DNA from: a virus
DNA: 28,298 nt
Virus record (IMG/VR): IMGVR_UViG_3300023202_000125
Span: 1 to 28,298 of that record
Direction: 5' to 3' (one strand)
This document shows positions 6,845-28,298 of this stretch, in pieces (position 1 is the stretch's first letter; every line of letters starts with the position of its first letter). A program made the position numbers and the translations under genes. Under the pieces are notes generated by a model. That model had not been told where the DNA came from. It saw only the letters and a list, made by a program, of their open reading frames with translations, and did no database searches.

Positions 6845-8034
6845 TAAGGGGTTATCTCCGTAATCGTTAGAACTGAACGCAACGCGCCACCATATATCTG
6901 ACCGCCACTTTGACCATTTACTGTTACGGTTCCAACTCCACTTGCGCCAACTCTAACTTTAAAAGTTGTCGAAGATGTTGTGCCAGCAGCAACTACATAT
7001 TGAAAGCCCGGATTTGCTCCACCATTGGCTGTAGTTGAATAATCATAACCAGCAGCAATACAGTTAGCGTTACTATCTTGGAATAGACATGCAGACAAAT
7101 AACCAGAACCAGCTGTATACGAGAGATTGGTGTTACAAGTGATTACCAAAATATTGCTAGCATTCTTTGGCGTAATAGAAAGCGTACCAATTTCAAAGCC
7201 TTCTGTATTCTGCGGTACAGTGTTATCAAAAGGAATTGTTGTTGTGCCTGATGTGGTTGCAAGTTCTACGCTCTTACGTTGTATTACAGGGTTTGTTGAT
7301 GTTAAGCCAGTACCACCCTGAGAAATTCCTAATGGAAATTCTATCAACTCACCGTAGGTGTTGAGTTGGTAGTATTCGGTAACAATAATAATGCCCGCAG
7401 CACCTGCACCCCCTGCATAACCGGATGTACCAGCAGTACCCGCCGCGCCACCTGCGCCAACACTATAAGAATAAGTGGACGCTGGATTTGTGATAATTCC
7501 TCTAGCATAGCCACCCGCACCACCACCCGCACCACCAACGATATTCGCAGTATTGATTGTGCCGCCACCTGAGCCACCACCGCCAGTGTTAGCAGCAGCC
7601 GATTGACCTGTGCCGCCACCAATTGCACCACCTTTTGCGCCGCCACCAAAAACACTGTTGCCACCTGTGCCGCCATTTGTCTGATTAGCGCCAGTGATGG
7701 ATGTTTCAAGCTGCATGGATGCGCCACCGCCACCACCTGCTAAATTATAGTCGCCACCGGAAGCCCCACCCCCAGAACCTGGAGTAAAGAAACTAGCAGC
7801 CGAACCACCATTTGCAGTTAGTGTTGAAAATGTAGTATTTCCACCAGTTCCGGGAGCACTCCCTGCTACAGAGCCAGAACCAGCGCCACCTCCACCACCT
7901 CCCACTAACTGCACATCAATGTAGAGCACACCAGCGGGCTTTGTATATGTGCCGCTACCGGATGTAAAAATCTGCCGCGTTGGCGCTGTATAGCCTGTAT
8001 AAATTGGAGCTTGTTTTACGAATCCTTGGCTCAT
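6844..8034 (-). CDS. Glycine-rich tail fibre / adhesin
   Basis: A 396-residue fibre protein. Residues 1-40 share the MSQGF anchor start with the fibre at 5742-6497 and then read FTSGSGTYTKPAGVLYIDVQ. A long glycine-rich domain follows (about 40-220, runs such as VGGGGGGAGSG and NTGGGGSGGG). It resembles the glycine-rich receptor-binding modules of T2 gp38-type adhesins, in which polyglycine II helices carry variable loops. A second QGGTG motif (GISQGGTGLTS) begins a C-terminal beta domain. The gene looks more AT-rich at wobble positions than its neighbours, suggesting recent acquisition. GAGAGG precedes the ATG, which overlaps the upstream stop by 1 nt. Confidence 0.87.
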   Translation of the reverse strand: MSQGFVKQAPIYTGYTAPTRQIFTSGSGTYTKPAGVLYIDVQLVGGGGGGAGSGSVAGSAPGTGGNTTFSTLTANGGSAASFFTPGSGGGASGGDYNLAGGGGGASMQLETSITGANQTNGGTGGNSVFGGGAKGGAIGGGTGQSAAANTGGGGSGGGTINTANIVGGAGGGAGGYARGIITNPASTYSYSVGAGGAAGTAGTSGYAGGAGAAGIIIVTEYYQLNTYGELIEFPLGISQGGTGLTSTNPVIQRKSVELATTSGTTTIPFDNTVPQNTEGFEIGTLSITPKNASNILVITCNTNLSYTAGSGYLSACLFQDSNANCIAAGYDYSTTANGGANPGFQYVVAAGTTSSTTFKVRVGASGVGTVTVNGQSGGQIYGGALRSVLTITEITP

Positions 8035-9767: not shown

Positions 9768-10217
9768 TTAGCTCCCTAGCATAATTTTCTGGTATATTTT
9801 GGCCGCTTCCCTTGGGTCGTCCGAACTCTCATCCAAGTCTAGACCGCCATCTTCACCCGGACCGGATATACCGATCGTTTGATGCTCCGCAAACCTAGCC
9901 TGCGTTTTGAGATAGAATATTATGGCACTTAAGTTACCTTTTTTCACGAGTTCTATTAGCTTCCCTGCCACCATCGCTATAGTTCGTGACTTCCCTCGCT
10001 TAACCGCTTCGGCTAGCTCGGGGTGGTTCTTGACCAAATTGTACCAGTACGAATGACTGACGCCATAGTAGTAATGTATCATCTGCTGCGTCAAACCACG
10101 ACCCGATAAAACCTCCACCTCGTCAAGCAGCTGTTGCGTAACAATCAAGAGAGGCTTTGGGCCTCTCTTTGCGGGTTTTTTTGTTTTTGCTTTAGCCTTA
10201 GCTTTCGCTTTCACCAT
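9768..10217 (-). CDS. terS: Putative small terminase subunit
   Basis: A 149-residue protein with the layout of phage small terminases, the subunit that recognises the packaging site and regulates TerL. An unusual very basic tail comes first (VKAKAKAKAKTKKPAKRGPK). A helix-turn-helix follows at about 27-65 (LLDEVEVLSGRGLTQQMIHY, then YGVSHSYWYNLVKNHPELAE). Next is a helical segment (AVKRGKSRTIAMVAGKLIEL, then NLSAIIFYLKTQARF), which matches the oligomerisation region of TerS proteins. The acidic C-terminus resembles a TerL-contact tail. GAGAGG precedes the ATG. The gene overlaps the end of the methyltransferase by 20 nt. It is separated from terL by six minus-strand genes, which is unusual. 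Confidence 0.82.
   Translation of the reverse strand: MVKAKAKAKAKTKKPAKRGPKPLLIVTQQLLDEVEVLSGRGLTQQMIHYYYGVSHSYWYNLVKNHPELAEAVKRGKSRTIAMVAGKLIELVKKGNLSAIIFYLKTQARFAEHQTIGISGPGEDGGLDLDESSDDPREAAKIYQKIMLGS
10147..10177 (+). other. Perfect 9-bp hairpin inside terS followed by T-tract on plus strand
   Basis: AAGAGAGGC (10147-10155) pairs perfectly with GCCTCTCTT (10161-10169) around a TTTGG loop. TGCGGG and then seven T follow on the plus strand. It lies within the coding sequence for the basic terS N-terminus. Read rightward it resembles an intrinsic terminator that would block antisense transcripts; it could also be part of a packaging site, which often lies in terS. Confidence 0.45.
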
Positions 10218-11313
10218 TGAACACCTCTCCTGTTCTTTCTAATACTGCACGTTGACCGCTAAAATCCTGCCAGCGTTTTACTATTACGTCACAATATTTC
10301 GGGTCTAGCTCCATTGTGGCACACTTACGCCCGCGCTTTTCACGCGCTATTAGCGTCGAACCGGAACCGCCGAATAGGTCCAGAATGAGGTTGTTAGGCT
10401 TGGACGAGTTCTCGAGTGCTATTTCGATTAGGGCGATCGGTTTCATCGTAGGGTGCAGCTTGTTTGCGGCGGGCTTGTCGACCTCCCAGAGCGTGGACTG
10501 GGTTTTATCGCCGTACCAGTTATCTTTCTGGTTTAGCTTATGGACATAGAAGATCGATTCGTGCTGGAACTTGTAACGGCCGAACCCCCATGCATGCGTA
10601 TTCTTTGCCCAGATGATTTGGCAACGCACCTCGAAACCGCAATCCTCCAGAGCGTCCTGAAATTCGCGCTGGTAGACCGATCCATGACAGACGTACATGG
10701 AGGCCTCGTCTTTGGTGAAAACCGCGTAATTCGCAAATGTGTCGGCCAGAAGCTCTTTAAACTGCTGAATCTTAAGCTTATCCTTGGTGTATCCCTCATA
10801 ATCGACGTTATATGGCGGGTCGGTAAAAACGAGGTCAGCCTTTTGCTCTGCCATCAATTTGCTCACCGCATTGAAGTCGGTGGCGTCGCCGCACATCAAA
10901 CGGTGCGAGCCTAGTAACCACAGATCGCCGGGTCGAGTGATGGGTTCCGGTCCGGCCTCGGGCACGCTGTCCTCGTCGACCAACCCGGCCTGTATCTCCT
11001 CGGGGTTTAGGATGTCCTGCAGCTCGTCCTCGCGAAAGCCGGTCAGCTTCATATCGAAGCCGTCCTCGTTTAGCTCTTTCAGCTCATCACGCAGTTTGGT
11101 TTTTTCCCAGCTAGCGTTTTGGGCAATCTTGTTCGCCGCTTCAACACGGGCGTGTCCGGAGATAATCACAAGGTCAGGCCCCACCTCTACAGGGTCGTTA
11201 AACCCGTAGGCCTTAATAGAGTCTACAATTTCGGCCAGCTGCTCCTCGTCGTGCGCTCTAGCGTTCCCTTCAAAATCTTTTAACTGCGATACAGCCCGTT
11301 CTATTATTTGCAT
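10198..11313 (-). CDS. ParB-N domain DNA methyltransferase (beta class)
   Basis: A 371-residue fusion protein. Residues 1-100 are a ParB/Sulfiredoxin-like domain (ISGHARVEAANKI, typical G-H-x-R). A DNA methyltransferase domain follows: DLVFTDPPYNVDYEG contains motif IV DPPY at about 165-168, HPTMKP comes later, and LDLFGGSGSTLIA is SAM-binding motif I at about 314-319. Motif IV before motif I is the beta order, and DPPY usually indicates N6-adenine methylation (N4-cytosine is possible). Such proteins protect phage DNA from host restriction or mark it for packaging. ATG 11313 has AAGGA 7 nt upstream and is preferred to the ATG at 11346. It heads the leftward operon and overlaps terS. Confidence 0.92.
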   Translation of the reverse strand: MQIIERAVSQLKDFEGNARAHDEEQLAEIVDSIKAYGFNDPVEVGPDLVIISGHARVEAANKIAQNASWEKTKLRDELKELNEDGFDMKLTGFREDELQDILNPEEIQAGLVDEDSVPEAGPEPITRPGDLWLLGSHRLMCGDATDFNAVSKLMAEQKADLVFTDPPYNVDYEGYTKDKLKIQQFKELLADTFANYAVFTKDEASMYVCHGSVYQREFQDALEDCGFEVRCQIIWAKNTHAWGFGRYKFQHESIFYVHKLNQKDNWYGDKTQSTLWEVDKPAANKLHPTMKPIALIEIALENSSKPNNLILDLFGGSGSTLIAREKRGRKCATMELDPKYCDVIVKRWQDFSGQRAVLERTGEVFNGESES

Positions 11314-11436
11314 TTGTATCCTTCTCCCTTCGCGTAAAAACCACATACAACGGAGCGCAAAAACTTACAACCCCATAGCCCCGCACATACACCACATAAA
11401 GGTAAAAGTCCGGGGTAGACCCCTATTCCTTTATTT

Positions 11437-11677: not shown

Positions 11678-12121
11678 ATGTCGAAAAAACCGAATAAGTC
11701 TTTTTGCGAACGGAGACGAGCAGCAATGGAGCAAGGGCTGGTTAAGTACCAACCTTTGCATAAATGCACATACGGACACCGCTCATTACGCTACACAAAA
11801 AGCGGCGCGTGCATAGCGTGCAACAGGCTCCGTCCTACTCGTGACAAGGCTGCAGACCGTCGCTTGCAAAGACGCAAGCGGGCCGAGGCGATACGCAACG
11901 GCCAGAGTTATTACTATACAGGCGTGCCGTGCAAGAACGGTCATCGAACGCCGCGTAACGTATCGAACCATAGCTGTCAGGGCTGTGAGCGTGACCGTGC
12001 GCGTATCAGGAGACGCGGGAATGCGCTGGAGCGTTTTGTTGCATATGTACATGCTGAGGATATCCCGGTGCTGCAGGAGCTAGTCGACGCATTGAATATG
12101 GCGCGAAAACTGGTTGACTAG
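11678..12121 (+). CDS. Basic protein with duplicated C-x3-H / C-x2-C zinc motif
   Basis: A 147-residue, strongly basic protein with no full family match. It has two copies of one motif: C30-TYG-H34 with C45-IA-C48, and C85-KNG-H89 with C100-QG-C103. Each looks like one small zinc ribbon, and Arg/Lys-rich helices follow both. This suggests nucleic-acid binding. Related C-x-x-G-H...C-x-x-C segments occur at the start of some phage HNH-type proteins, but no HNH core is seen here. It is the first gene of the rightward operon, so an early regulator or DNA-associated role is plausible. GGGAGG lies 11 nt before the ATG, a long spacing. Confidence 0.8.
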   Translation: MSKKPNKSFCERRRAAMEQGLVKYQPLHKCTYGHRSLRYTKSGACIACNRLRPTRDKAADRRLQRRKRAEAIRNGQSYYYTGVPCKNGHRTPRNVSNHSCQGCERDRARIRRRGNALERFVAYVHAEDIPVLQELVDALNMARKLVD

Positions 12122-12141
12122 CCGATGGCGCGTGCTATTAT
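12114..12141 (+). promoter_or_regulatory. Consensus-like promoter at the end of the zinc-motif gene
   Basis: TTGACT (12114-12119), 16-nt spacer, TATTAT (12136-12141). It overlaps the stop codon of the preceding gene and drives the gene at 12171. A family B operator candidate overlaps its -10 and start point. Confidence 0.65.
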
Positions 12142-12159
12142 TGCCGGCAAGGACAACAA
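12138..12159 (+). promoter_or_regulatory. Family B operator candidate 4
   Basis: TTATTGCCG-N4-GGACAACAA, matching the spacing of the sites at 22967, 25362 and 27371. The right half is the weakest of the four. It contains the perfect palindrome TTGCCGGCAA. The position over the -10 and start point suits repression. Confidence 0.45.
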
Positions 12160-16224: not shown

Positions 16225-16449
16225 ATGGCACTTAAGTACAAAATAACAAAGCGGTTTGCACCCAATAATGATGAACCCGTTTTCCGCACATATACAAAAC
16301 GAGACTGTTGGTACCGTTTCCTGCTTCCTTGGCGGGAAATCGGCTCCGCCTCAAGCCGCATCTTGGCTGAGTCCCTCATCGACCAGCACTGCAAGGTCTA
16401 TCCCCATAAGGCGTACAGGCTAAACGAAACGTGGATTTATTATCGTTGA
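16225..16449 (+). CDS. Hypothetical protein downstream of the folded RNA
   Basis: A 74-residue protein (starting MALKYKITKRFAPNNDEPVF) with several aromatics (CWYRFLLPWREIGS) and a KAYRLNETWIYYR end. ATG 16225 has AGGAG 6 nt upstream. An in-frame ATG at 16159 lies in the folded RNA and has no RBS, so it was not used. Its expression may be controlled by the RNA before it. No family recognised. The stop overlaps the -35 of the next promoter. Confidence 0.75.
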   Translation: MALKYKITKRFAPNNDEPVFRTYTKRDCWYRFLLPWREIGSASSRILAESLIDQHCKVYPHKAYRLNETWIYYR

Positions 16450-16475
16450 CTCATATACCTCAGTGACGGTATACT
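16446..16475 (+). promoter_or_regulatory. Promoter with family A operator, copy 1
   Basis: TTGACT (16446-16451), 18-nt spacer, TATACT (16470-16475). The operator TATACC-N8-GGTATA (16454-16473) fills the spacer; its left half TATACCTCA matches the ideal half-site. The -35 contains the TGA stop of the preceding gene. Unlike copies 2-5 it lacks the conserved downstream RBS. Confidence 0.8.
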
Positions 16476-16766: not shown

Positions 16767-17069
16767 ATGAAAAAGCTATTATTAACTGTACTTTTATGTT
16801 ACAGCGCTACCGCCTGCGCGGAGTGCTACATCCCACCCATGTCATGGTTCGGCCCGGACGGCCCGGAAAAGCAGGCCTTTGAGGCTAAGCGCCGCAAGGC
16901 TATCCTACGCGACTGCCGCAAGCAGGAGGAGGCCCGTGAACACCAGCGCCGTATGAAACGGGCCGTCGCCCAGTACAAAGAGCCGCCGGTCCACCACGTT
17001 AACCGAGTAGAGCAGGCCGTTAGCGGGTACGGCGCGGTGCTACTCACGAAAGCGTGGATGGGGCGTTGA
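16767..17069 (+). CDS. Exported small protein with signal peptide
   Basis: A 100-residue protein with a Sec signal peptide (MKKLLLTVLLCYSATACAEC), likely cleaved after A-C-A. The lipobox match is poor, so a lipoprotein is less likely. The mature part is basic and helical (KRRKAILRDCRKQEEAREHQ), with a short C-terminal hydrophobic end. GAGG lies 8 nt before the ATG. A periplasmic or outer-surface role, for instance superinfection exclusion or lysis aid, is possible but unsupported. Confidence 0.78.
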   Translation: MKKLLLTVLLCYSATACAECYIPPMSWFGPDGPEKQAFEAKRRKAILRDCRKQEEAREHQRRMKRAVAQYKEPPVHHVNRVEQAVSGYGAVLLTKAWMGR

Positions 17070-17112
17070 CCTTATACCACCATTGAGGTATACTAGTGTT
17101 ATAAAGAGGAGA
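17066..17112 (+). promoter_or_regulatory. Promoter/operator/RBS cassette, copy 2
   Basis: TTGACC (17066-17071), 17-nt spacer, TATACT (17089-17094), operator TATACC-N8-GGTATA (17073-17092), then a conserved tail ending in GAGGAGA (17106-17112). The right half TTGAGGTATA is the perfect half-site. The TGA stop of the preceding gene lies in the -35. The 47-bp unit differs from copies 3 and 4 at one base at most. Confidence 0.85.
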
Positions 17113-17119
17113 CAATATT

Positions 17120-17470
17120 ATGAGCACAAACGCAATTTTCACTTTTCGCGCTAAAAACCAGCCAACCCACAGAATCTACATGCACTGGGACGGCTCCCCT
17201 GAAGGCGCCAGAATGGCCCTGAAAAACACCCTTAACAACGCATGGGCGCTCCCACGCTTTGAAACCGGAGAGTTTGCTGCAGCCTTCGTATTTTCGAACA
17301 AAGGCGATAGCGGCGGCAACGTGTACCTCCTCGGCAACCGAGAAGGCCACGACTATATGTACCTCTACGATGTAGATTTTTACGACGGGGAGCTACATGT
17401 GGCCGTAACCCACCACAATGTGACTATTTTCAACGGAACCCTTAAAGAGTTTTTTGCTAAATACGCTTGA
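17120..17470 (+). CDS. Conserved phage protein with HWDGSPEG motif
   Basis: A 116-residue protein: MSTNAIFTFRAKNQPTHRIY, then MHWDGSPEGARMALKNTL, FAAAFVFSNKGDSGGNVYLL and YLYDVDFYDGELHVAVTHH. The H-W-D-G-(Y/S)-P segment recurs in small phage proteins of unknown function. It is the only gene behind cassette 2, with GAGGAGA 7 nt before its ATG. No catalytic role can be assigned. Confidence 0.83.
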   Translation: MSTNAIFTFRAKNQPTHRIYMHWDGSPEGARMALKNTLNNAWALPRFETGEFAAAFVFSNKGDSGGNVYLLGNREGHDYMYLYDVDFYDGELHVAVTHHNVTIFNGTLKEFFAKYA

Positions 17471-17513
17471 CTTTATACCACCATTGAGGTATACTAGTGT
17501 TATAAAGAGGAGA
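17467..17513 (+). promoter_or_regulatory. Promoter/operator/RBS cassette, copy 3
   Basis: TTGACT (17467-17472), 17-nt spacer, TATACT (17490-17495), operator 17474-17493, RBS GAGGAGA (17507-17513). Differs from copy 2 only at the sixth base of the -35. The stop of the preceding gene (17468-17470) is part of the -35. Confidence 0.85.
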
Positions 17514-17520
17514 ACATAAT

Positions 17521-17682
17521 ATGAATAAAAACAACCTGACCCCCAAACAACAACAGTTTGCTGACATGCTAATCGAGGCCTTTTGCGAAGCGGAGAGCCG
17601 ACAACGTAAGGCAAGAATGCGCAAAGAAGACGAGGCCTATAAACAAAAACAGCTCGCACGCGCTCAGAAGGCGGCGGAATGA
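17521..17682 (+). CDS. Small basic helical protein
   Basis: A 53-residue protein, ATG at 17521 with GAGGAGA 7 nt upstream. It reads as one long charged helix: LTPKQQQFADMLIEAFCEAE, then QRKARMRKEDEAYKQKQ. It ends by overlapping the next ATG (ATGA). Function unknown. Confidence 0.75.
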   Translation: MNKNNLTPKQQQFADMLIEAFCEAESRQRKARMRKEDEAYKQKQLARAQKAAE

Positions 17683-17822
17683 TTACGGCCCGATTCTATA
17701 ACGAGGCTGCCTTCGGGCACCTCGTCCTACTGGAGGAGCGCCAGTTCAAAACGCTCCCGGCTGCCCGGGATTACGCGCAGGAGCTATTCTTTTGTAACCA
17801 TTGGGAGTATGAAAAGGCTTGA
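17679..17822 (+). CDS. Small hypothetical protein, coupled to the preceding gene
   Basis: A 47-residue protein (MITARFYNEAAFGHLVLLEE, then RQFKTLPAARDYAQELFF, ending NHWEYEKA). ATG at 17679 overlaps the upstream stop by 4 nt, with little independent RBS. The stop lies in the -35 of cassette 4. No family recognised. Confidence 0.68.
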   Translation: MITARFYNEAAFGHLVLLEERQFKTLPAARDYAQELFFCNHWEYEKA

Positions 17823-17865
17823 CCTTATACCACCATTGAGGTATACTAGTGTTATAAAGAGGAGA
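17819..17865 (+). promoter_or_regulatory. Promoter/operator/RBS cassette, copy 4
   Basis: TTGACC (17819-17824), 17-nt spacer, TATACT (17842-17847), operator 17826-17845, RBS GAGGAGA to 17865. The 47 bp are the same as copy 2 as far as read by eye. Confidence 0.85.
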
Positions 17866-17873
17866 ACATAAAA

Positions 17874-18065
17874 ATGACTGATAAAAACCGCGCTTTAAAA
17901 AACCGGGCTGCCAAATTCATCGCCGAGGCCCACGAAGAAGAACTGCTAGACTTTTTCATGGAAAGTTTCGACCGGGACGTTTTATACAAACTGCAAAACG
18001 TAGCGGACGCTGCCATCACCGCTGACCGCGAATACCAAGAGATGATGAAAGGGGAGCAGGAATAA
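17874..18065 (+). CDS. Small acidic helical protein
   Basis: A 63-residue helical protein: DKNRALKNRAAKFIAEAHEE, then LLDFFMESFDRDVLYKLQNV and REYQEMMKGEQE. GAGGAGA of cassette 4 lies 8 nt before the ATG. It is the first of a run of five short genes. Function unknown. Confidence 0.77.
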   Translation: MTDKNRALKNRAAKFIAEAHEEELLDFFMESFDRDVLYKLQNVADAAITADREYQEMMKGEQE

Positions 18066-18695: not shown

Positions 18696-18926
18696 ATGAA
18701 CACCGTAGACGTTTTAAAAAAGTGGCTCGTATCCCACGAGTCAGACTTAAGGGAAATGGAGTCAAACGAGACCCACCTATCCAGCCATATTGAGTTAGTT
18801 AAGTCCCGCGGCGCAACGCCATTAGAACGTGACCTTACAACTCTGGCCCATTACAAAGAGGTGATACCTCCCTGCCGATTAGCGTGTAAGGCGCTGAAAG
18901 ACTTTATTGACTCTATACCTCAGTGA
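18696..18926 (+). CDS. Small helical hypothetical protein overlapping a promoter
   Basis: A 76-residue protein: VLKKWLVSHESDLREMESNE, then YKEVIPPCRLACKALKDFID. A predicted helical hairpin. The last codons overlap promoter 5: the coding end contains the -35 and the left operator half, and the stop TGA lies in the operator centre. AAAGG lies before the ATG. Confidence 0.77.
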   Translation: MNTVDVLKKWLVSHESDLREMESNETHLSSHIELVKSRGATPLERDLTTLAHYKEVIPPCRLACKALKDFIDSIPQ

Positions 18927-18953
18927 AGGTATACTGGTGTTATAAAGAGGAGA
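18907..18953 (+). promoter_or_regulatory. Promoter/operator/RBS cassette, copy 5
   Basis: TTGACT (18907-18912), 17-nt spacer, TATACT (18930-18935), operator TATACC-N8-GGTATA (18914-18933), RBS GAGGAGA to 18953. Here the left half TATACCTCA is ideal, whereas in copies 2-4 the right half is. The -10 side and RBS tail are like copies 2-4. Confidence 0.83.
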
Positions 18954-18959
18954 CAAACT

Positions 18960-19181
18960 ATGAGAAACCGTTTAACTTTTCAAAACCGCGCGAACCGCGA
19001 CACCAAGTACAAAGAGTTGAAAGCCGCTGGCCACAACCCAACACGCTCTCGCTCGACCAACCAGCTGCTCCACCCCCAGTATGTTACCGACTATGACGGG
19101 CTGGAAAAACACGACACGGGTTTAGGCAACACCGTATATAAAACCCATTTCGGCAGACTGTATCATTTGGAGTGGGAGTAA
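18960..19181 (+). CDS. Small basic hypothetical protein
   Basis: A 73-residue basic protein: MRNRLTFQNRANRDTKYKEL, then AAGHNPTRSRSTNQLLHPQY and GLGNTVYKTHFGRLYHLEWE. GAGGAGA lies 6 nt before the ATG. Possible nucleic-acid binding by charge, otherwise unknown. Confidence 0.76.
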   Translation: MRNRLTFQNRANRDTKYKELKAAGHNPTRSRSTNQLLHPQYVTDYDGLEKHDTGLGNTVYKTHFGRLYHLEWE

Positions 19182-20281: not shown

Positions 20282-22609
20282 TCACTTTTGGTCCTCCGTA
20301 TAGGCCTTGGCTATTTTGACCGGCTCGGTCAGGCCGATCGCAGGGTTGTCGCTTTTGATGTACAAACGTGGCTTGCCGCCGTCTGGCAGCACTGTGTTAT
20401 TTACGCGGCCGTCTTTCAAATGGGGGTGCCAGTCATAGCCTAAAGACTGGAGGACCTCACGGCGCCGATTTTGGGGTATGCGTCGAGATACATTCAGCTT
20501 ATCCAGTAGCCGGTCGAGAGCCATCGATGATATCCATCCGTTTTTAAAACCTGCGGTGCCTTGCTCGATAGTTTCGACTATTTCTTGCTCTACTCCTCCG
20601 AGCCCTTGCTGGATAGCGGTTTCCGTCGAGGAGGTAATAGGAGCGCGTTTACAGTGCGTTGCGGGGTTAAATTCATCGGGTATATCGTAAGTAGAGAGGT
20701 ATTCGTTAACGTACATCATCCCCTCGTCGTTCAGCCACTCATAAATATTGGGAAAATAATCACCTCCCATGCCGTCCCGAATCAGGTCGTCTGCGGTCTG
20801 TTGTGCAGTATAAAAAACCGCAAAGCGGCGGTCGTTACGTGTTTTACGCAGACCGTCCTTGTGGTTAGTGTTGATTAAAAAGTTAGCGCAAACATCCCGG
20901 GTTACCTTAGCCCCACCTTTCGACTCGATCTCCTGCCGCTCACCGGTGACCATCGGCTTCATCGCCTCCATGATTTCGTTGCGGCCGTCTTGAGTATAAA
21001 TATCCTCAACCGCGATGAAAGTCCTGCCGTATATCCAGTCGTTAAAGCGACTAGCCAGCTCGGCCGCCTTGGGATAGTGGGTGTAACGCGTGCCGACCGC
21101 GAAGGCCACACAGCGAGTTAGTAGCGTCTTACCGTTCCCCTCAACTCCCTGAATCACAGGGCACCATTGAAACTTCACCCCCGGGTATTGAATGATGGCC
21201 GCGAGGTAGCAAATTAAAATCTGCTGGTCGCGTTTGTTTGGTAGTAGCAATGCGATATGCCTAAGGAACCGTTCGACGCATCCCTTTTTGCGCATGGTTT
21301 TTATCGGCCACCAAACATTCGCCATCGTTTGCCCGTCTTTTTCTATGATGACGCCAGCGGGCAGGTCCGGGCGAAAGCAGGTCGTATCGGCACGCGGCGA
21401 GACAAAAGCCTGCGACTCCGTGAACGCCTCCCATGCGTTTCTGGTTGTGCGCTCATTACGGCTGTCCATCATCAGTGACCGGCCACCGTAACGAACCCGG
21501 AACCGCTCGGCATTGATAAGGACACCACCCGGGATGAGGGCTTTATGCTCGTCAGTTACATACACGCATCCGGCAAAATGTCTCAGCTGCTCTTCAACAG
21601 ACAAAAAAGTATTTCCAGTAATGATTTCAGCTTTAGTCACGCCCTCTTGACTAGGCGCAGGGTTTGCGTTAGGTTGAGCCGGCTTATCACAGATCCAGTC
21701 CTTTTGTCTCCCGCATGCGCTTTCGATCGTTCGCGGGAGATAGTCCTCACGGTCCCACTTATCTCGACGTAGTGCTGAACGCTCCATGAGCCGCTGAATA
21801 CGCTCGCAGTCGTTACCTGTCCAGAAGGCAAGGTGCTGAGCAAGCGCTGCGTCAGCCGAACTCGCGTTATAAGACCGCTCCGGATCTGGGTATGAAGCTG
21901 CCAGTACCTCCTCATTCGCCTCCCACAGATCGGCAAACGATGCATTGCCCCCAAATATCGATCGGGCTGAGTTCGACTGCAGCGCTCGCCTTAACAGGTC
22001 CTCATCATCTGTTGGGCCGTTCCATCCACTACAAGGCCCATCGGTCCAGCCTTCTCCTGAGGACTCTACCGGACGGAAGTATTTGTCAATAACAGCGGGT
22101 AGCATATTCGTGGCGTCCAACCCCGCGTTACCCATCGCGTTAGTTCCGGTCAGCGCCACAAAGCGATCGCTTGAGTAAAGCTCTATGCCTCTCTCCGCGT
22201 TCCTGCAACTGTGAGGTGGTATTTTTCCACTCCCGATAATGTGAAGGCCTCGACCAGAGCTGGAAATTTCAACCGCTGCGTTGGCCAACATACCCAGTAA
22301 CTCCAGCGCTAGTGGTGACCACGTGTTGTTATCCTGTAAGCAGTTATCGATATCCAAAAACCAGAAAGGGTCGTTTCTCGTGAACACGAAACCCACGCCG
22401 TGCCCATGCCCGAGGTCCTTGGCAAACCGTGAGGCGGTTTCAAAGTCCATCCACCCGCTTGGGTCGAGGGCGCTTATCAAGTATTGCGTTTGAGGGTTGA
22501 TTGGCAGCTTGTCTAATTTACCGGGTCTCTTTTCGCTCGCAACGAGTCGGTACACAACAAATTGGTTATAAGAATTTAAGGCGCATAACGCCTCTGGCAG
22601 CAAATCCAT
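20282..22609 (-). CDS. Primase-helicase, NrS-1-like AEP with DUF5906-type helicase
   Basis: A 775-residue replication protein. An archaeo-eukaryotic primase-type domain (about 1-180) has the metal-binding FLDIDN (D86 and D88) and SSGRGLHIIG (H123). A middle segment (about 255-300), FWTGNDCERIQRLMERSA then RRDKWDREDYLPRTI, is like the helicase-binding segment of the NrS-1 phage polymerase. A superfamily 3-like helicase follows (about 480-610): Walker A GVEGNGKT (488-495), Walker B FIAVEDI (531-537), sensor FLINTNHKDGL and RNDRRF near 591-596 as arginine finger. It primes and unwinds phage DNA. AAGGA lies 8 nt before the ATG. Confidence 0.92.
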   Translation of the reverse strand: MDLLPEALCALNSYNQFVVYRLVASEKRPGKLDKLPINPQTQYLISALDPSGWMDFETASRFAKDLGHGHGVGFVFTRNDPFWFLDIDNCLQDNNTWSPLALELLGMLANAAVEISSSGRGLHIIGSGKIPPHSCRNAERGIELYSSDRFVALTGTNAMGNAGLDATNMLPAVIDKYFRPVESSGEGWTDGPCSGWNGPTDDEDLLRRALQSNSARSIFGGNASFADLWEANEEVLAASYPDPERSYNASSADAALAQHLAFWTGNDCERIQRLMERSALRRDKWDREDYLPRTIESACGRQKDWICDKPAQPNANPAPSQEGVTKAEIITGNTFLSVEEQLRHFAGCVYVTDEHKALIPGGVLINAERFRVRYGGRSLMMDSRNERTTRNAWEAFTESQAFVSPRADTTCFRPDLPAGVIIEKDGQTMANVWWPIKTMRKKGCVERFLRHIALLLPNKRDQQILICYLAAIIQYPGVKFQWCPVIQGVEGNGKTLLTRCVAFAVGTRYTHYPKAAELASRFNDWIYGRTFIAVEDIYTQDGRNEIMEAMKPMVTGERQEIESKGGAKVTRDVCANFLINTNHKDGLRKTRNDRRFAVFYTAQQTADDLIRDGMGGDYFPNIYEWLNDEGMMYVNEYLSTYDIPDEFNPATHCKRAPITSSTETAIQQGLGGVEQEIVETIEQGTAGFKNGWISSMALDRLLDKLNVSRRIPQNRRREVLQSLGYDWHPHLKDGRVNNTVLPDGGKPRLYIKSDNPAIGLTEPVKIAKAYTEDQK

Positions 22610-22631: not shown

Positions 22632-22943
22632 TTAATTAAAATATGTCAGGGCTTTCTGTTTCAATTCCTTATCTACTGAATGTGCCTGTCGGTCTCCTAA
22701 TGCTAGTCCTTGTGCGATGACGGGCAATATTCCGTTTTGAATTGCCGTCTCCATCACCTCTCTTTTTAAGTTGTCCATGTTAGTGAAATACCAAGTCACG
22801 AGCGCGGTGGACGTTCCCGCTTCGCTTGCCACCGTTTTACGTCTGAGGTTTAGGTATCCAACCCGCTTTGCAAGTCGCAGCGCCGCTTCTAGAATTTCTT
22901 TTCTCCGCTGAATCGGATCTTGTCTTTTTACTTTACTTTGCAT
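22632..22943 (-). CDS. Short TetR-type DNA-binding protein
   Basis: A 103-residue protein with a TetR N-terminal domain. RKEILEAALRLAKRVGYLNL forms helix 1. KTVASEAGTSTALVTWYFTN is the helix-turn-helix (compare the family pattern I-A-x-x-A-G-V-S-x-x-x-L-Y-x-x-F). DNLKREVMETAIQNGI follows. Typical TetR proteins are about 200 residues; the ligand-binding C-terminal domain is missing, so it may act without a small-molecule inducer. Its promoter holds a 22-bp dyad also found at three other promoters, so it is the best candidate for their regulator. GGAGG precedes the ATG. Confidence 0.85.
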   Translation of the reverse strand: MQSKVKRQDPIQRRKEILEAALRLAKRVGYLNLRRKTVASEAGTSTALVTWYFTNMDNLKREVMETAIQNGILPVIAQGLALGDRQAHSVDKELKQKALTYFN

Positions 22944-22957
22944 CGTTCCTCCGAGGC

Positions 22958-22985
22958 ATTATATGGTTATTGCCCGTTACGTCAA
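22958..22985 (-). promoter_or_regulatory. Promoter of the TetR-like gene
   Basis: On the minus strand TTGACG (22980-22985), 16-nt spacer, perfect TATAAT (22958-22963), 15 nt before the ATG. The family B operator 1 lies between and over the -35. Confidence 0.8.
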
Positions 22986-22988
22986 TAA
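22967..22988 (-). promoter_or_regulatory. Family B operator 1 (autoregulatory)
   Basis: TTATTGACG-N4-GGGCAATAA on the minus strand. The outer six bases of each half (TTATTG and CAATAA) are perfectly inverted. It covers the -35 and spacer of the TetR-like gene promoter, suited to autorepression. Confidence 0.7.
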
Positions 22989-22992
22989 TAAC

Positions 22993-23196
22993 TTAAACAC
23001 TTCCGTTTCTTAAAAAGTTCATTACGGTTTGAGTGCATTTGAAACAAGCTGTTCTTTCATTTTTATGCATTCCATTTACAACCGCGGCCTCCACGTCACG
23101 AAAGTGGAACTTGCCCACCTGCAACTCTTCGCCACAAAAACTTTTGTTTTCGTCGTCAAACGAACGAATATGGTCACCACTATCAAGTCCCGTCAT
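22993..23196 (-). CDS. Small Cys-containing protein between nuclease and TetR gene
   Basis: A 67-residue protein starting at ATG 23196, overlapping the nuclease stop as ATGA, with GAGAGG upstream. The longer frame back to 23259 has no RBS. It reads MTGLDSGDHIRSFDDENKSF, then CGEELQVGKFHFRDVEAAVV, then NERTACFKCTQTVMNFL. The Cys at about 21, 54 and 57 and the His residues may bind zinc. No family recognised. Confidence 0.76.
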   Translation of the reverse strand: MTGLDSGDHIRSFDDENKSFCGEELQVGKFHFRDVEAAVVNGMHKNERTACFKCTQTVMNFLRNGSV

Positions 23197-23681
23197 AAAG
23201 TTCCCTCTCCGATTGCAAAGCCGGCGTCGCCACCTAACGCCATAACCATTTCGGCCCAACGCAGCTGAGCCTCCTCTCTGTCTGTTCCGCGGTAAATCCA
23301 GTTACTTGCTTTCACCTCTCGACTAACAAACTGGCCTATAGTGAGCCCTACATGTGCAGGCGTGATTACCACGGGGCGGATTCCGATTAAGTCAGCTGAC
23401 TTTATTTGTTTGTTAAGACGACTGGAGTCGTTAGCCAAACCATAACGAATAAAGTCGCCATTAGAAGTATAGGTGGCGCCCACGTTATTTCGCCACAGCG
23501 GCCATCCTAGCCGCGCGGCCTCTATACGCACTCGCGATTGTATTGACGCTTCTGATGATCGGCTGCTAGTATCGACAGCAAGAATCAGATCTCGGTTCTC
23601 CTCAATTGCAGTCCTTCGGAGGTAGTCGTCCGCTGCCTCTCGTGGGATATTCCATTTCCTTGCCCATTCATAAAACCACAT
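23193..23681 (-). CDS. VRR-NUC family nuclease
   Basis: A 162-residue protein of the VRR-NUC (PD-(D/E)XK) superfamily. After the N-terminal part come SEASIQSRVRIEAARLGW with an E of the active site and PLWRNNVGATYTSNG. SADLIGIRPVVIT follows, with D of the D-x(n)-E-x-K motif, then GQFVSREVKASNW with E-V-K, then EAQLRWAEMVMALGG. Phage members are stand-alone Holliday-junction or flap nucleases of replication and recombination. AGGGA lies 6 nt before the ATG. It lies between helicase and primase, as expected for a replication module. Confidence 0.88.
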   Translation of the reverse strand: MWFYEWARKWNIPREAADDYLRRTAIEENRDLILAVDTSSRSSEASIQSRVRIEAARLGWPLWRNNVGATYTSNGDFIRYGLANDSSRLNKQIKSADLIGIRPVVITPAHVGLTIGQFVSREVKASNWIYRGTDREEAQLRWAEMVMALGGDAGFAIGEGTL

Positions 23682-23697
23682 AATTCTTCCCTAATTC

Positions 23698-25350
23698 TTA
23701 AGCATTGCTTAGCGTATCCGCTACTGCCCACTCCGTCAATAGGCAAGAAGTGAGCCTCTCCGTCAACTCCTCAGCTGCTTTGGTTTTCAGCGTTTGTGCG
23801 CTTAATATGTCTACACCAAATTTAAAATAGAAGGTCCTATAGATCTCAGCGTCATCTTTACCTTCGGCTCTTTGATAGCCGGCCCAATCCGCTATTTTTT
23901 CTCGCAGAACCGCCTGCGCCGCTTGTTTTTCTTTGTGCCTTTTTGCTAACGATACCTGTGCGATGGGCGGCAGGTATGGTGAGATGATCGGGGCATTGTC
24001 GACCTTCTCTATTTCACCACGCATTTTAGCCAGTACTTCTGGGTCGAGTTCTGTCAGGTCGCCGTCCACAAACTCGGGCGCCGTTCGTGCTGCAGGAGGC
24101 GTAAAGTGGCCGCAGTAGGGGCACTGCTTGCTTGTACGCCGGTAGACCAGCATGCACTTTTTATTGAGGCAGGTCTTTAAAGGGATACTATCCTCGGGCG
24201 CTGTTCGGGCACCGCGTCCTTCCCTGCGGTTGAGCGTCCAATTGCGCGGTGAGTCAGGTAGTCCGTGCCGAATAACATTGTCGACATGGTCGATGATGAT
24301 CGCATGATCTTTCCCTGCCATTGGCCTCAAGGCGCGGCCGAATTGCTGTGAGTACAGACCGAACGACTGAGTTGGCCGGGCCATAGAAACAACCTCGATT
24401 GCTGGTACGTCCACCCCCTCTCCCAAAAGATCGACGTTCACCAGCTGGAGGATCTCACGCTTGCGAAAACGGTCCATCACACGGGCGCGGAGAAGGTCGG
24501 GCGTTTTGCTACTGATAACCTCTGCAGACACCCCCGCTAAACGGAACTCTTCTGCAATTTCTGCTGCAGCATCGATATCAACTGCAAACGTGACCCCGAG
24601 TTTGCCGGGCGCGATCTTAAGGTAATGGCTTACAACATCACCAGTGATGTGCGACTTGTGAACGGCCTTCCTAAGTTTGGGCGGGCTATAATCACCGCCG
24701 GCACTAATCGTAACCTCTGATAAATCCAGATTAGAGGGCGGCGCAAATATTCGGTAATCCGTGAGATACCCCCTATTAATAAGATCGCGCATCGATGGGC
24801 CGATCACGATAGCGTCCATGAGGCCGTCAGCGTGACGACCGAGGCCTTTACCGTCGGCGCGAATGGGTGTTGCGGTCGGGTAAAGACCTTTTGCGTTCGG
24901 GAATAACGCTGCAGCTTTGCCCCACTTCTTTTTTTTCAAAGGGTGATGCCCCTCGTCTTGCACGACCAATGTGACGCGTGCAAACCACGGTGTTTTCTCG
25001 CGCATGCGAATCAGAGTATCCACGCCTGCAACGCTAGCCGCCGCTTGGGGGTGGTAGTAGGAGCGGCCCAGCTCGTTCATGTGCATCGTGACGATATCGC
25101 GTACCGCTCGCTTTGGAGCGATGATATTGTGTCGAACACCGTGCCGTCCGAGGGTAAGTGATATCTGGCTCACCAGCTCTACGCGGTGTGCGATGGCGAT
25201 AGAGTAGCCCTTATGTTGGGCTATTATGTGGGAGAAAAGTACAGTTTTGCCTGCCCCGGTTGCTAATTGAGCTAAAACGTTAGTGGCGCCGTTCATCCAA
25301 GCCCGATAAATATCCTGAACAACTTGCTCTTGATAGTCCCTGAGTTTCAT
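23698..25350 (-). CDS. Superfamily 2 DEAH-type helicase with zinc ribbon
   Basis: A 550-residue SSL2/RadD-like helicase. Motif I is QLATGAGKT (to about 36), motif II DEGHH (132-136), motif III YPTATP (about 158-162), motif V DLLGEGVDVP and motif VI QQFGRALRP (335-343). A zinc ribbon follows (C394, C399, C410, C413). The charged helical C-terminus, rich in Lys and Ala, has no recognised role. It unwinds DNA using ATP, probably in phage replication or recombination with the nuclease next to it. ATG 25350 with AAGGA upstream is preferred to an upstream in-frame start at 25407, which lies before the promoter's -10. Confidence 0.93.
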   Translation of the reverse strand: MKLRDYQEQVVQDIYRAWMNGATNVLAQLATGAGKTVLFSHIIAQHKGYSIAIAHRVELVSQISLTLGRHGVRHNIIAPKRAVRDIVTMHMNELGRSYYHPQAAASVAGVDTLIRMREKTPWFARVTLVVQDEGHHPLKKKKWGKAAALFPNAKGLYPTATPIRADGKGLGRHADGLMDAIVIGPSMRDLINRGYLTDYRIFAPPSNLDLSEVTISAGGDYSPPKLRKAVHKSHITGDVVSHYLKIAPGKLGVTFAVDIDAAAEIAEEFRLAGVSAEVISSKTPDLLRARVMDRFRKREILQLVNVDLLGEGVDVPAIEVVSMARPTQSFGLYSQQFGRALRPMAGKDHAIIIDHVDNVIRHGLPDSPRNWTLNRREGRGARTAPEDSIPLKTCLNKKCMLVYRRTSKQCPYCGHFTPPAARTAPEFVDGDLTELDPEVLAKMRGEIEKVDNAPIISPYLPPIAQVSLAKRHKEKQAAQAVLREKIADWAGYQRAEGKDDAEIYRTFYFKFGVDILSAQTLKTKAAEELTERLTSCLLTEWAVADTLSNA

Positions 25351-25361
25351 GCAGCCATTCC

Positions 25362-25383
25362 TTATTGACGGTATGGGCAATAT
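25362..25383 (+). promoter_or_regulatory. Family B operator 2, between divergent replication genes
   Basis: TTATTGACG-N4-GGGCAATAT. Same sequence and spacing as operator 1 but with a different centre (GTAT). It overlaps the -10 of the leftward helicase promoter and forms the -35 of a rightward candidate promoter, so one protein could control both. Confidence 0.7.
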
Positions 25384-25394
25384 AGAAGTATCCT
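25365..25394 (+). promoter_or_regulatory. Weak rightward promoter of the Pro-rich gene
   Basis: TTGACG (25365-25370), 18 nt, TATCCT (25389-25394). The -10 is a partial match, so it may need help or be an artefact of the operator. Confidence 0.4.
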
Positions 25395-25407
25395 TACGGC
25401 CTGTCAA
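25379..25407 (-). promoter_or_regulatory. Strong leftward promoter of the helicase operon
   Basis: On the minus strand a perfect TTGACA (25402-25407), 17-nt spacer, TATATT (25379-25384). It drives the helicase gene with a leader of about 20 nt. Confidence 0.82.
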
Positions 25408-25430
25408 TTGCCAGATAATAAGGAAATTCT

Positions 25431-26150
25431 ATGTTACAGCTACACATTCCCGATCTAACCCGATACAAACCCGTTCAGCTTCGCGCTATTGCAAGATTGC
25501 TATTAGCGATGGCAGGTGATGAGCTAGTTGAAGCCCCTGCTAAAGAGGAGAATATTTTAAAAGAACCAGAAATAACCTCGGCACCGAGCATCCCTGAGTC
25601 GCCGCGCGAGTCTAACGACGATTGCGTAGAAATGGAGTCTCCACCAGCTCCCGATGACGACATGATTCCGGAGACCTTCGAAGAGCCTGTCGCTCCACCG
25701 CCACCGCCGCCACCTGCTACATCAGTCGCTCCACCGCCACCGCCGCCACCTGCTGCGCCTTCGGTTGAGCTTGATAAACGCGGTCTGCCGTGGGACGCGA
25801 GGATCCACTCCAGTTCAAAAAAGTTTAAGGTGGACGGCACTTGGAAAAACCTGCGTAACCTCGATAAAGAGTACGTTAAAAAAATCGAGCAAGAATTACT
25901 TTCGGCTCAAGCCGCACCGGCCGCTACAACCAATCCAGAAGATGAACCTGCCGTCGTGCAGCAGCCTTTTCCTAAGCTAATGGTCGACATCGCAAAATGG
26001 ATTAATAGCGGGAAAATATCTCGACCAGATATCATCGCTATCGCACAAAGCCACGGTATCAAGTCCATTCCACTTATAGCGACTCGTGTTGATTTGATTC
26101 CAACGATACGAGCTGACATTGAAGCTGCCATGATGATGGGAGATGAGTGA
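25431..26150 (+). CDS. Pro-rich phage protein with GLPWDARIHSS motif
   Basis: A 239-residue protein. The N-terminus MLQLHIPDLTRYKPVQLRAI leads into an acidic, Pro-rich linker with two 12-residue units (VAPPPPPPPATS). A conserved module follows, LDKRGLPWDARIHSSSKKFK then WKNLRNLDKEYVKKIEQEL, known from phage replication clusters next to DUF2800 and ssDNA-binding genes. The C-terminal domain is helical (LMVDIAKWINSGKISRPDII). A role in replication or recombination is inferred from context; no enzyme motif is seen. AAGGA lies 6 nt before the ATG, and the stop overlaps the next ATG by 1 nt. Confidence 0.87.
   Translation: MLQLHIPDLTRYKPVQLRAIARLLLAMAGDELVEAPAKEENILKEPEITSAPSIPESPRESNDDCVEMESPPAPDDDMIPETFEEPVAPPPPPPPATSVAPPPPPPPAAPSVELDKRGLPWDARIHSSSKKFKVDGTWKNLRNLDKEYVKKIEQELLSAQAAPAATTNPEDEPAVVQQPFPKLMVDIAKWINSGKISRPDIIAIAQSHGIKSIPLIATRVDLIPTIRADIEAAMMMGDE
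25689..25754 (+). repeat. Two 30-bp direct repeats encoding poly-Pro
   Basis: The 30 bp starting GTCGCTCCACCGCC at 25689 recur exactly at 25725 (period 36 bp), encoding two VAPPPPPPPA units. Slippage or unequal recombination could change the copy number and so linker length. Confidence 0.85.
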
Positions 26151-27370
26151 TGCAACATTCTAAGCTACCGCCTTCATCGGCTGCTCGAAGGGTAGCGTGT
26201 CCGGGGTCGCGAGCATTAGAGGCTCGCTACCCTGAGAACGATTCCCCTCATGCCAAAGAGGGAGAGGCCGCCCACTGGTTGGCAATGTTTATCATGCAAG
26301 AAAAACCGATTTGTCGCTGGGACCAGAATTTCATGTTCTACAACGATCACGACGATAAATGGGACGAGATATTCGAGGCCCCAAACGGGGAACCGCTAAC
26401 CGAGGAGATGTACGACGGCGCCCTGCTTTATCAGAAAGCCATTGAAAAGTATATGACTAGGGATGCATGTTCTTTTCCTGCTCCCGCGCCGGAGCCAGTT
26501 TTACATCTTGAAGAGCGCGTGAGTATCGAGCGTATTCACCCGGACTGTTGGGGAACGCCAGACGCGTGGGCTCACCTCTCAGACGGCTTGCATATCTGGG
26601 ATTACAAATTCGGCTATCTTTTTGTTGAGGTTTACGAAAACTGGCAACTCATAGAGTACTGCGCTGGTATACTGGATGAGGTTAAGGCACGGATGCCAAA
26701 CTTTGACGATAGACACCTTCCTGTCCATTTTCACATTGTTCAGCCTCGAAGTTTTCATCGAGACGGGCCGGTACGGTCATGGCATGTTATGGCGAGTGAC
26801 TTGCGAAGCCATTTCAACATCCTATCCCATGCAGAAGCCGAGGCCTCCAAAGACGACGCGCTATGCAACCCCACTCCGGAGTGTACCTACTGTCGTGGCC
26901 GGCACGCGTGCAAAGCCATCCAACGATCGGCACTTTCCGCAGTAGAAACTAGCATGATGAACACGCCACTGGACCTACACTCTTATGAGGTGGGATCTGA
27001 GTTGCGCATCCTCAAACGAGCTGCCAAACTACTCGACGCTCGAATAACCGGACTTGAGCAGGAAGCGAACAGTATGATCTCGCGCGGTGAGTTCGTTCCT
27101 TATTTCCGACTGGAACGCACGAAAGGCCGTGAACGCTGGACCATGACTCCTGAAGAAGTCGCGGAGGTGGGCGAGGCTTACGAAGTGGACCTCCGTAAAC
27201 CACTCACGGTGATCACGCCTCGACAGGCAGCTAAGCTCAAAATTCCCGAAGACGTAATCCAAGAAATGTCGGAGCGTCCAGACGGACCAACGAAACTCGT
27301 GGAAGACGACGGCCTCAACGCGAAAAAGATATTCGGTGCCGGCGAGTATGAAAAAAGCCAGCCCATTTAG
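26150..27370 (+). CDS. DUF2800 RecB/Cas4-like nuclease
   Basis: A 406-residue PD-(D/E)XK protein of the DUF2800 family. Active-site blocks: KEGEAAHW (about 37-43), WGTPDAW (D138), IWDYKFGYLFVEV (D151-x-K153) and ENWQLIEYCAG. C17 (VACPGS) with the late C245, C248 and C254 (PECTYCRGRHACKA) form a likely four-Cys iron-sulfur site as in Cas4/AddB nucleases. It probably processes DNA ends in phage recombination together with the ssDNA-binding protein downstream. ATG 26150 has GGGAG 7 nt upstream; the in-frame GTG at 26147 is less likely. The C-terminal third is mixed and charged, ending KKIFGAGEYEKSQPI. Confidence 0.9.
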   Translation: MQHSKLPPSSAARRVACPGSRALEARYPENDSPHAKEGEAAHWLAMFIMQEKPICRWDQNFMFYNDHDDKWDEIFEAPNGEPLTEEMYDGALLYQKAIEKYMTRDACSFPAPAPEPVLHLEERVSIERIHPDCWGTPDAWAHLSDGLHIWDYKFGYLFVEVYENWQLIEYCAGILDEVKARMPNFDDRHLPVHFHIVQPRSFHRDGPVRSWHVMASDLRSHFNILSHAEAEASKDDALCNPTPECTYCRGRHACKAIQRSALSAVETSMMNTPLDLHSYEVGSELRILKRAAKLLDARITGLEQEANSMISRGEFVPYFRLERTKGRERWTMTPEEVAEVGEAYEVDLRKPLTVITPRQAAKLKIPEDVIQEMSERPDGPTKLVEDDGLNAKKIFGAGEYEKSQPI

Positions 27371-27392
27371 TTATTGACCTAAGCGGCAGTAA
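27371..27392 (+). promoter_or_regulatory. Family B operator 3, before the ssDNA-binding gene
   Basis: TTATTGACC-N4-CGGCAGTAA. The left half and spacing match operators 1 and 2; the right half differs at two positions from GGGCAATAA. It covers the -35 and most of the spacer of the promoter of the next gene. Confidence 0.6.
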
Positions 27393-27402
27393 GAATTAAC
27401 AT
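27374..27402 (+). promoter_or_regulatory. Promoter of the ssDNA-binding gene
   Basis: TTGACC (27374-27379), 17-nt spacer, TAACAT (27397-27402), 38 nt before the ATG. Confidence 0.55.
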
Positions 27403-27440: not shown

Positions 27441-28298
27441 ATGAGCAATCGTAAAGATATCAGGACCCCCGTTGGACGCCTTGTACAAGGCTCGCTATAC
27501 GACGGCAGAACTACAGACGCCGAAGGTAACGCCCTCACTTTTAAATCAGGACCTAAAGTTGGCCAAGCACGAATGGATTATTTCTTCTCCATTGCGATCC
27601 CTAAAGGGCCTGAGGCCCACTGGAAAGATACGCCTTGGGGCACTATCATTTGGTCAGTCGGACAGGCAGGCTTTCCACAAGGTCATGCCAACTCCCCAAG
27701 CTTTGCTTGGAAGGTAAAAGACGGTGACGACACAACACCTAACCGTAACAACCGTAAAAACTGTGATCGCGAAGGTTTCCCCGGTCATTGGATTTTAAAC
27801 TTCTCCAGCAGCAATCCACCTTCCATTTTCAATCGAGACGGCAGCAAACCGCTCCTTGAAAAAGACGCCGTCAAACCGGGCGATTACATTCAAGTTTTCG
27901 GTAACGTAACTGACAACGAATCCACACAGCAGCCGGGCGTGTATTTGAACCATCAAATGGTCGCTCACTCCGGTTACGGCGAGCCAATCATTCTCGGACC
28001 AGATCCAAAAGCTGTCGGCTTCGGTGAAGATCCTTTGCCACCGGGAGCAAGCGAGACTCCGGTCGGAACGGCCTTTGGCGCGACCCCAGAACCCGCAACG
28101 CCTGCTCCTGCTCCTGCAGCACCAGCGCCTGCACCCGCAGCACCAGCGCCTGCACCCGCAGCACCAGCACCAGCGCCTGCTCCTGCTCCTGCAGCGCCTG
28201 CACCCGCAGCACCTCCGGCGCCTTATCCTGAGATCATGAACCCTCCTGCAGTACCGGCCCGCGTGATGACAGCTAAAGCCCAAGGGACGCCGTATGAA
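27441..28298 (+). CDS. Probable ssDNA-binding protein, 3' end cut by window
   Basis: Open from ATG 27441 (AAGGA 7 nt upstream) to the edge: 286 residues seen, no stop. The first 190 residues look like an OB-fold ssDNA-binding protein of phage replication clusters: VGRLVQGSLYDGRTTDAEGN, then ARMDYFFSIAIPKGPEAHWK, WSVGQAGFPQGHAN, and a late block DYIQVFGNVTDNESTQQPGV then YLNHQMVAHSGYGEPI. This resembles DUF2815-like or gp2.5-like proteins, but the family is not certain. A long Ala-Pro linker follows (about 215-263), then EIMNPPAVPARVMTAKAQG. Bacterial SSB tails are often flexible; this one may be a protein-contact arm. It follows the nuclease by 70 nt. Confidence 0.78.
   Translation, partial: MSNRKDIRTPVGRLVQGSLYDGRTTDAEGNALTFKSGPKVGQARMDYFFSIAIPKGPEAHWKDTPWGTIIWSVGQAGFPQGHANSPSFAWKVKDGDDTTPNRNNRKNCDREGFPGHWILNFSSSNPPSIFNRDGSKPLLEKDAVKPGDYIQVFGNVTDNESTQQPGVYLNHQMVAHSGYGEPIILGPDPKAVGFGEDPLPPGASETPVGTAFGATPEPATPAPAPAAPAPAPAAPAPAPAAPAPAPAPAPAAPAPAAPPAPYPEIMNPPAVPARVMTAKAQGTPYE
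28097..28217 (+). repeat. Ala-Pro coding repeat array
   Basis: Short tandem units built of GCACC, GCGCCT and GCTCCT codons encode alternating Ala and Pro; a 21-bp unit beginning GCACCAGCGCCTGCAC is repeated in tandem. The antisense strand shows Arg/Cys-rich frames that are artefacts of the repeat. Confidence 0.8.

Follow-up and report, generated by a model that had tools for sequence, protein, structure and literature searches.

Candidate operators of a short TetR-type protein in the replication module of tailed phages

Phage lambda encodes Cro, a small repressor that needs no ligand and has several dyad operators lying over early promoters, among them its own. Among repressors of the TetR/AcrR type are EilR, AmvR, LuxR/SmcR and Mce3R, the last of which is reported to have a double TetR motif (PMC11667970). 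Members of the phage protein family phrog_8723 are annotated 'putative TetR transcriptional regulator' in Jedunavirus, SppYZU01 and VchM-138 and occupy the same place in a primase-nuclease-helicase cluster as the protein considered here; the family is listed in PHROGs v4 with neither a function nor an operator assigned to it. This paper concerns a phrog_8723 protein of 103 amino acids and a family of dyads around its gene in IMG/VR record IMGVR_UViG_3300023202_000125. The window analysed is the entire record of 28,298 bp, which is classed as linear and is probably a fragment, and which contains a tailed-phage structural half and a replication module. The dyads are probably operators of the adjacent TetR-type protein, which would act as a Cro-like brake on early replication promoters.

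Dyads over the promoters of the replication module

A sequence-only reading of the window had proposed a dyad of the form TTATTGMCS-N4-SGRCARYAA at four places, lying over core promoters, as the basis of a small regulon, with the TetR-like protein governing its own gene and DNA replication. All four positions were exact. A search of the whole record for this pattern with up to three mismatches recovered them together with a fifth site that had been overlooked, 23721-23742. There were nine strand-matches at five places versus 0.68 ± 0.87 in dinucleotide shuffles of the window, none of 100 of which reached nine. The dyads are real and above chance expectation but every one is imperfect, with 6-7 of 11 pairs matching, and the form is better given by their common core, TTGMC-N6-GKCAA, in which the half-sites are 11 bp apart. 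The sites and the promoters at them are as follows.

22967-22988: candidate operator O1, over the -35 (22985-22980, minus strand) and spacer of the tetR promoter
22958-22985, minus strand: tetR promoter TTGACG-16-TATAAT, 11/12 consensus matches, -10 ending at 22958
23721-23742: candidate operator O2, before the nuclease gene and within the helicase 3' end; 2 mismatches, minus strand
25362-25383: candidate operator O3, in the divergent helicase/proline-rich (Pro-rich) promoter region
25379-25407, minus strand: helicase promoter TTGACA-17-TATATT, 11/12 consensus matches, -10 overlapping O3
25365-25394, plus strand: Pro-rich gene promoter TTGACG-18-TATCCT, 9/12 consensus matches, -35 within O3
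27371-27392: candidate operator O4, before the single-stranded DNA-binding (SSB)/annealing gene
27374-27402, plus strand: SSB promoter TTGACC-17-TAACAT, 9/12 consensus matches
12138-12159: possible weak operator, half-sites TTGCC and GACAA (N6), membership doubtful

Sigma-70-like promoters underlie the sites at 22967, 25362 and 27371, and when each is read in the direction of its gene, one of its half-sites coincides with the -35 box. The claim that the dyads lie over core promoters holds for these three. It had also been said that the left half holds the -35 in three of the sites; at tetR it is instead the right half, taken on the minus strand, that supplies the -35. Here the palindromic operator-like site overlaps the -35 of the regulator's own promoter, and in all there are four dispersed operator-like sites at four promoter regions, that of tetR included, an arrangement resembling that of Cro. 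O2 lies ∼40 bp upstream of the nuclease start, with TTGACG present and a weak -10 (TACGCT). The site at 12138 fits the pattern, and it runs over the -10 of a promoter-like match (TTGACT-16-TATTAT, 12114-12141) just as O3 does on its helicase side, but neither of its halves has its own -10 behind it and the relatives lend it no support. O2 is the better-supported member of the family. The genes of the module are listed below; tetR and the primase/helicase gene probably share one transcript.

20282-22609, minus strand: DNA primase/helicase gene, phrog_1829 (E 1e-143), downstream of tetR
22632-22943, minus strand: tetR-like gene, 103 amino acids, TetR_N helix-turn-helix (HTH) plus ∼40 residues, phrog_8723
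23193-23681, minus strand: nuclease-like gene, phrog_93 endonuclease segment
23698-25350, minus strand: SF2 helicase gene, ResIII/Helicase_C (Pfam, PHROGs)
25431-26150, plus strand: Pro-rich protein gene, divergent from the helicase gene, phrog_11133
26147-27370, plus strand: DUF2800/PD-(D/E)XK exonuclease gene (Pfam and PHROGs profiles)
27441-28298, plus strand: Gp2.5-like SSB/annealing gene, truncated by the record end, phrog_7011

Spacing, conservation and neighbouring features

The spacing of the half-sites was examined in 22 genomes or fragments with the TetR gene (TetR+), 656 kb in all, gathered without use of the motif. TTG[AC]C-Nk-G[GT]CAA occurred 53 times at k = 6 and 0-5 times at each other k from 0 to 14, while shuffles gave 2-7 occurrences at k = 6. 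A plain promoter model predicts no peak at a single spacing, and the earlier claim that the inverted half is not explained by promoter sequence is borne out. Of 27 sites, 78% had a -10 at a distance of 16-18 bp from their TTGAC half; when the flanks were shuffled the figure was 19%.

Searches that began from the motif reached the same module. An exact scan of IMG/VR with TATTGAC-N6-GTCAATA found the replication module in 19/151 loci and the N7 control found it in 0/127 (Fisher 5e-6, or 8e-5 with four possible duplicates discounted). The stricter TATTGMCG-N4-CGKCAATA gave at least 120 stretches with at least 11 module loci, whereas its N5 control, taken over the entire collection, gave only 26 stretches, the module being absent from all of them. 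At the module loci the dyads stand 27-84 bp before helicase matches and 56-71 bp before SSB matches, and others follow closely on the helicase or primase gene and so precede the gene that comes next. Most stretches with the stricter dyad are outside the module, L126 carrying three copies and L095 two; this commonness suggests that other regulators probably use the same dyad.

Megablast of the window DNA against phages gave no match, and a single-protein IMG/VR search with the TetR-like protein found no relative. Relatives were reached instead through the primase, phage records and the dyad itself. The nearest by primase were L016-L020 (IMG/VR), and tblastn with the TetR-like protein gave 88 phage records, all below 60% identity, of which ten were taken whole. 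The phages used to judge conservation were chosen without using the dyad. In Acinetobacter phage Scuro, clustering of palindromes blind to the window motif gave one five-member family, TTACTGACATTATTGTCAATAA and its kin, where shuffles gave clusters of 1 only (20-mers); its sites are at tetR (21956), helicase/Pro-rich (26262), SSB (28347) and two more promoters. In L016 the sites upstream of SSB, helicase and nuclease read TTATTGACGGGTTCGTCAATAG, TTATTGACGAACTAGTCAATAG and CTATTGACGAAATAGTTAATAG, respectively; their positions are those found in the window, that of O2 included. KpV52 has an eight-member dyad family with sites at SSB (35497), Pro-rich (38224) and nuclease (40737, within the helicase 3' end), its tetR site (41617) being found separately. 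Four more operator-like sites in KpV52 (L009), at 4552, 7522, 14026 and 18802, stand before small hypothetical genes of the structural region, and the regulon may therefore extend beyond replication.

Taken site by site, O2 has counterparts in L016 (8527), KpV52 (40737), MEW1 (10613) and L184 (8246). Sites orthologous to O3 are found in L016, L009, L010, L402, L404, L184 and others, and those orthologous to O4 in L016 (3476), L009 (35497), L010 (28347), L007 (32532), L200 (2398) and L227 (6524). A scoring matrix built from the sites of other genomes alone, with the window excluded, scored the window slots at 20 for helicase/Pro-rich, 19 for tetR, 17 for nuclease and 15 for SSB, a score of 15 being reached by ∼2% of random 290-bp windows. 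A further five phages of Jedunavirus/Peatvirus, together with VchM-138 and PEi21, are all TetR+ and have 3-7 dyads each. Dyad sites accompany the TetR gene in phages of Klebsiella, Acinetobacter, Shewanella, Vibrio, Pectobacterium and Edwardsiella. Vibrio 1.023.O, Salmonella Sergei and HMSP1-Susan, which have the module and no clear TetR (in HMSP1-Susan a weak TetR-like open reading frame only, E 3e-7), showed no dyads above their own shuffles.

More distant relatives behave differently. In each of AeroV_348, PD0307 and VP16C a different word is common to the tetR and helicase/Pro-rich promoters, respectively TTGCCCTTTTTGATAGTA (15/18), ACGCGGAGAAAATTAGCA (16/18) and GCCGTTAGATTAGCGTTA (17/18), and 0/100 shuffles were as good. 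The words lie at 39672 and 36755 in VP16C (L014) and at 36237 and 31019 in PD0307 (L008), and in these two phages they are candidate operators of another specificity. The PD0307 word includes a GGAGAAA stretch just before tetR, so a ribosome-binding site could account for part of the match. Different shared words in three distant phages fit co-divergence of operator and protein better than the absence of a link, and on this reading of the sequences the connection between regulator and targets would persist while the operator changes. The best shared word of AeroV_348, GGGCTAACTGTAGCCC, was set aside as it resembles a terminator stem. A GTAGCGC palindrome family in Pseudoalteromonas phage PY6 (L015) was rejected as a set of operators since it looks like hairpins at gene ends; its five copies (7106, 8013, 12381, 19991 and 28187) are probably terminators.

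The window holds a second candidate promoter-operator family, TTGACY followed by a dyad TATACC-N8-GGTATA in the spacer and then TATACT. In four of its five copies the leader (GTGTTATAAAGAGGAGA), which stands before small genes, is almost the same.

16446-16475: second-family copy
17066-17131: second-family copy
17467-17532: second-family copy
17819-17884: second-family copy
18907-18972: second-family copy

At 10198-11346 there is a DNA methyltransferase fused to a ParB-like N-terminal part (phrog_620 and phrog_498 matches).

The TetR-like protein and its proposed action

The window protein matches TetR_N (PF00440) at E 7e-9, above the Pfam gathering score, and phrog_8723 at E 1.4e-27 over residues 2-100. 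When aligned with ten relatives, all 11 proteins match both profiles. The AlphaFold model (pLDDT 93.8) has seven short helices, 10-28, 35-42 and 46-53 forming the HTH, followed by 56-70, 73-81, 85-88 and 92-101. Its N-terminal part can be superposed on TetR DNA-binding domains of known structure (3he0, Z 10.6, 1.2 Å over 68 residues). No C-terminal ligand-binding/dimerisation domain was found, as only ∼33 residues follow helix 56-70; with its end at residue 103, the protein counts as a TetR_N-domain protein and not as a classical full-length TetR. No second DNA-binding protein that might be a rival regulator appeared among the small genes tested against Pfam and PHROGs. Tandem forms of ∼166 amino acids, both halves of which match the TetR profile, occur in Scuro, SppYZU01, L018 and L063 (double-HTH coordinates L010 21427-21924, L007 38065-38562, L018 1636-2136 and L063 5068-5565). 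In L071 the two halves are in separate overlapping frames (6630-6962 and 6368-6661).

What the sequence shows is the sites themselves, where they lie, how they overlap promoters, that they are conserved, that one spacing is preferred and that they occur together with the gene. On the proposed reading the phrog_8723 protein would bind TTGMC-N6-GKCAA as a symmetric dimer or pair, with the half-sites one DNA turn apart (11 bp) and so on one helix face. The targets would be tetR itself, with the primase gene downstream, the nuclease gene, the helicase/Pro-rich pair and the SSB gene. Because most of the promoters are near consensus, host polymerase would be expected to fire them early in infection. 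The bound site would cover the -35 or -10 and block RNA polymerase, and since the -35 box usually coincides with one of the half-sites, the promoters are likely to be repressed by occlusion. A dimer so placed would exclude polymerase, which favours repression, rather than activation, together with autoregulation. As the repressor accumulated, its own promoter and the other early replication promoters would be shut off. Given that there is no ligand-binding domain, a concentration-dependent, Cro-like brake without an inducer is preferred. The regulon that the sequence-only reading proposed is therefore supported at the level of sequence, by conservation in the nearer clade and by motif-first searches that reach the module.

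Several results weigh against this interpretation. The sequence-only reading had held that absence of the dyad from relatives keeping the gene would refute it and, while conservation beside the homologous genes is clear in the nearer clade, the distant TetR+ relatives L006, L008, L011-L015 and L017 are without the exact window dyad. Five of them, L011, L012, L013, L015 and L017, keep TetR and have no convincing shared word, 3/100 shuffles being as good as the best in L011. L016 has no site directly before tetR, and autoregulation there would go via the upstream nuclease promoter. The redundancy of Jedunavirus inflates the spacing count, the TetR-less control is small (three phages) and confounded by phylogenetic distance, and the shortness of the TetR_N protein makes its dimerisation less easy to account for.

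The dyads might also be nothing other than strong -35 boxes with fortuitous inverted halves, as one half is the -35 box at most sites. This is scarcely credible: a -35 box requires no inverted half 6 bp off and, with N6 alone enriched, the spacing test already contradicts chance, as do the blind family in Scuro and the orthologous positions in relatives. Their location in the replication module would suit replication-origin or packaging/partition sites, a very improbable reading given that they are single dispersed sites over four to nine promoters, mostly on the -35 or -10, and that those of KpV52 also precede small genes in the structural region. Some other phage factor or a host regulator could bind the dyads, the TetR gene being merely one target; 132/151 dyad loci in IMG/VR are without the module, and such a sequence is thus open to use by other proteins. 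We consider this improbable for the window because the sites go with the TetR gene in phages of six host genera, which speaks against a single host factor, because module phages without a clear TetR are also without sites, and because the different word at the tetR and helicase promoters of distant relatives fits co-change with TetR.

The main rival to shut-off during lytic growth leaves the operators with the TetR protein and gives it a role in immunity, lysogeny or pseudolysogeny, the replication module of a resident or superinfecting genome being silenced. The operators, the autoregulation and the choice of targets would be the same, and an integrase could lie outside the incomplete window. 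In phages that are probably mostly lytic, as those of Jedunavirus are, shut-off of early replication promoters is the simplest use of such a protein. The fully annotated relatives examined (e.g. KpV52, Scuro and R9Y1) have no annotated recombinase beside the gene, and in VP16C and PY6 the genes labelled 'putative integrase' have the size and position of a primase gene, which looks like misannotation. Lysogeny or immunity is thus unlikely, though less so than the other alternatives, and the Cro-like brake is preferred. A broader proposal is possible but tentative: phrog_8723 proteins may be widespread, ligand-free, TetR_N-only master regulators of a mobile replication module, protein and operators co-diverging in each lineage, with cross-immunity only between phages with matching dyads and with the tandem double-HTH members as single-chain dimers.

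Comparison with known systems

A study of this regulon was not found in the open-access literature, absence from which is weak evidence. For a family lacking a function, the analysis offers a testable function, an operator sequence and a regulon in phages of Klebsiella, Acinetobacter, Shewanella, Vibrio and others, so that controlled replication promoters may be predictable from sequence alone. The short ligand-free TetR-type repressors with their own operators would form a natural series for the study of specificity change and of the timing of phage DNA replication.

The TetR/AcrR repressors share with the present system the TetR_N HTH, a palindromic operator over the promoter and probable autoregulation. 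They differ in that the window protein is without a ligand-binding/dimerisation domain of normal size and its sites are at phage replication genes. The tandem double-HTH relatives of 166 residues are reminiscent of the double TetR motif of Mce3R. Lambda Cro may be a functional analogue only: its fold is unrelated, and here there is a single operator per promoter rather than tandem triplets and no known partner repressor. For phrog_8723 itself, both a function and an operator are proposed here. Phage repressors with dispersed operators are already a known kind; what the papers searched did not contain is a TetR_N-only, ligand-free form, as proposed here, with a replication-module regulon conserved across many genera.

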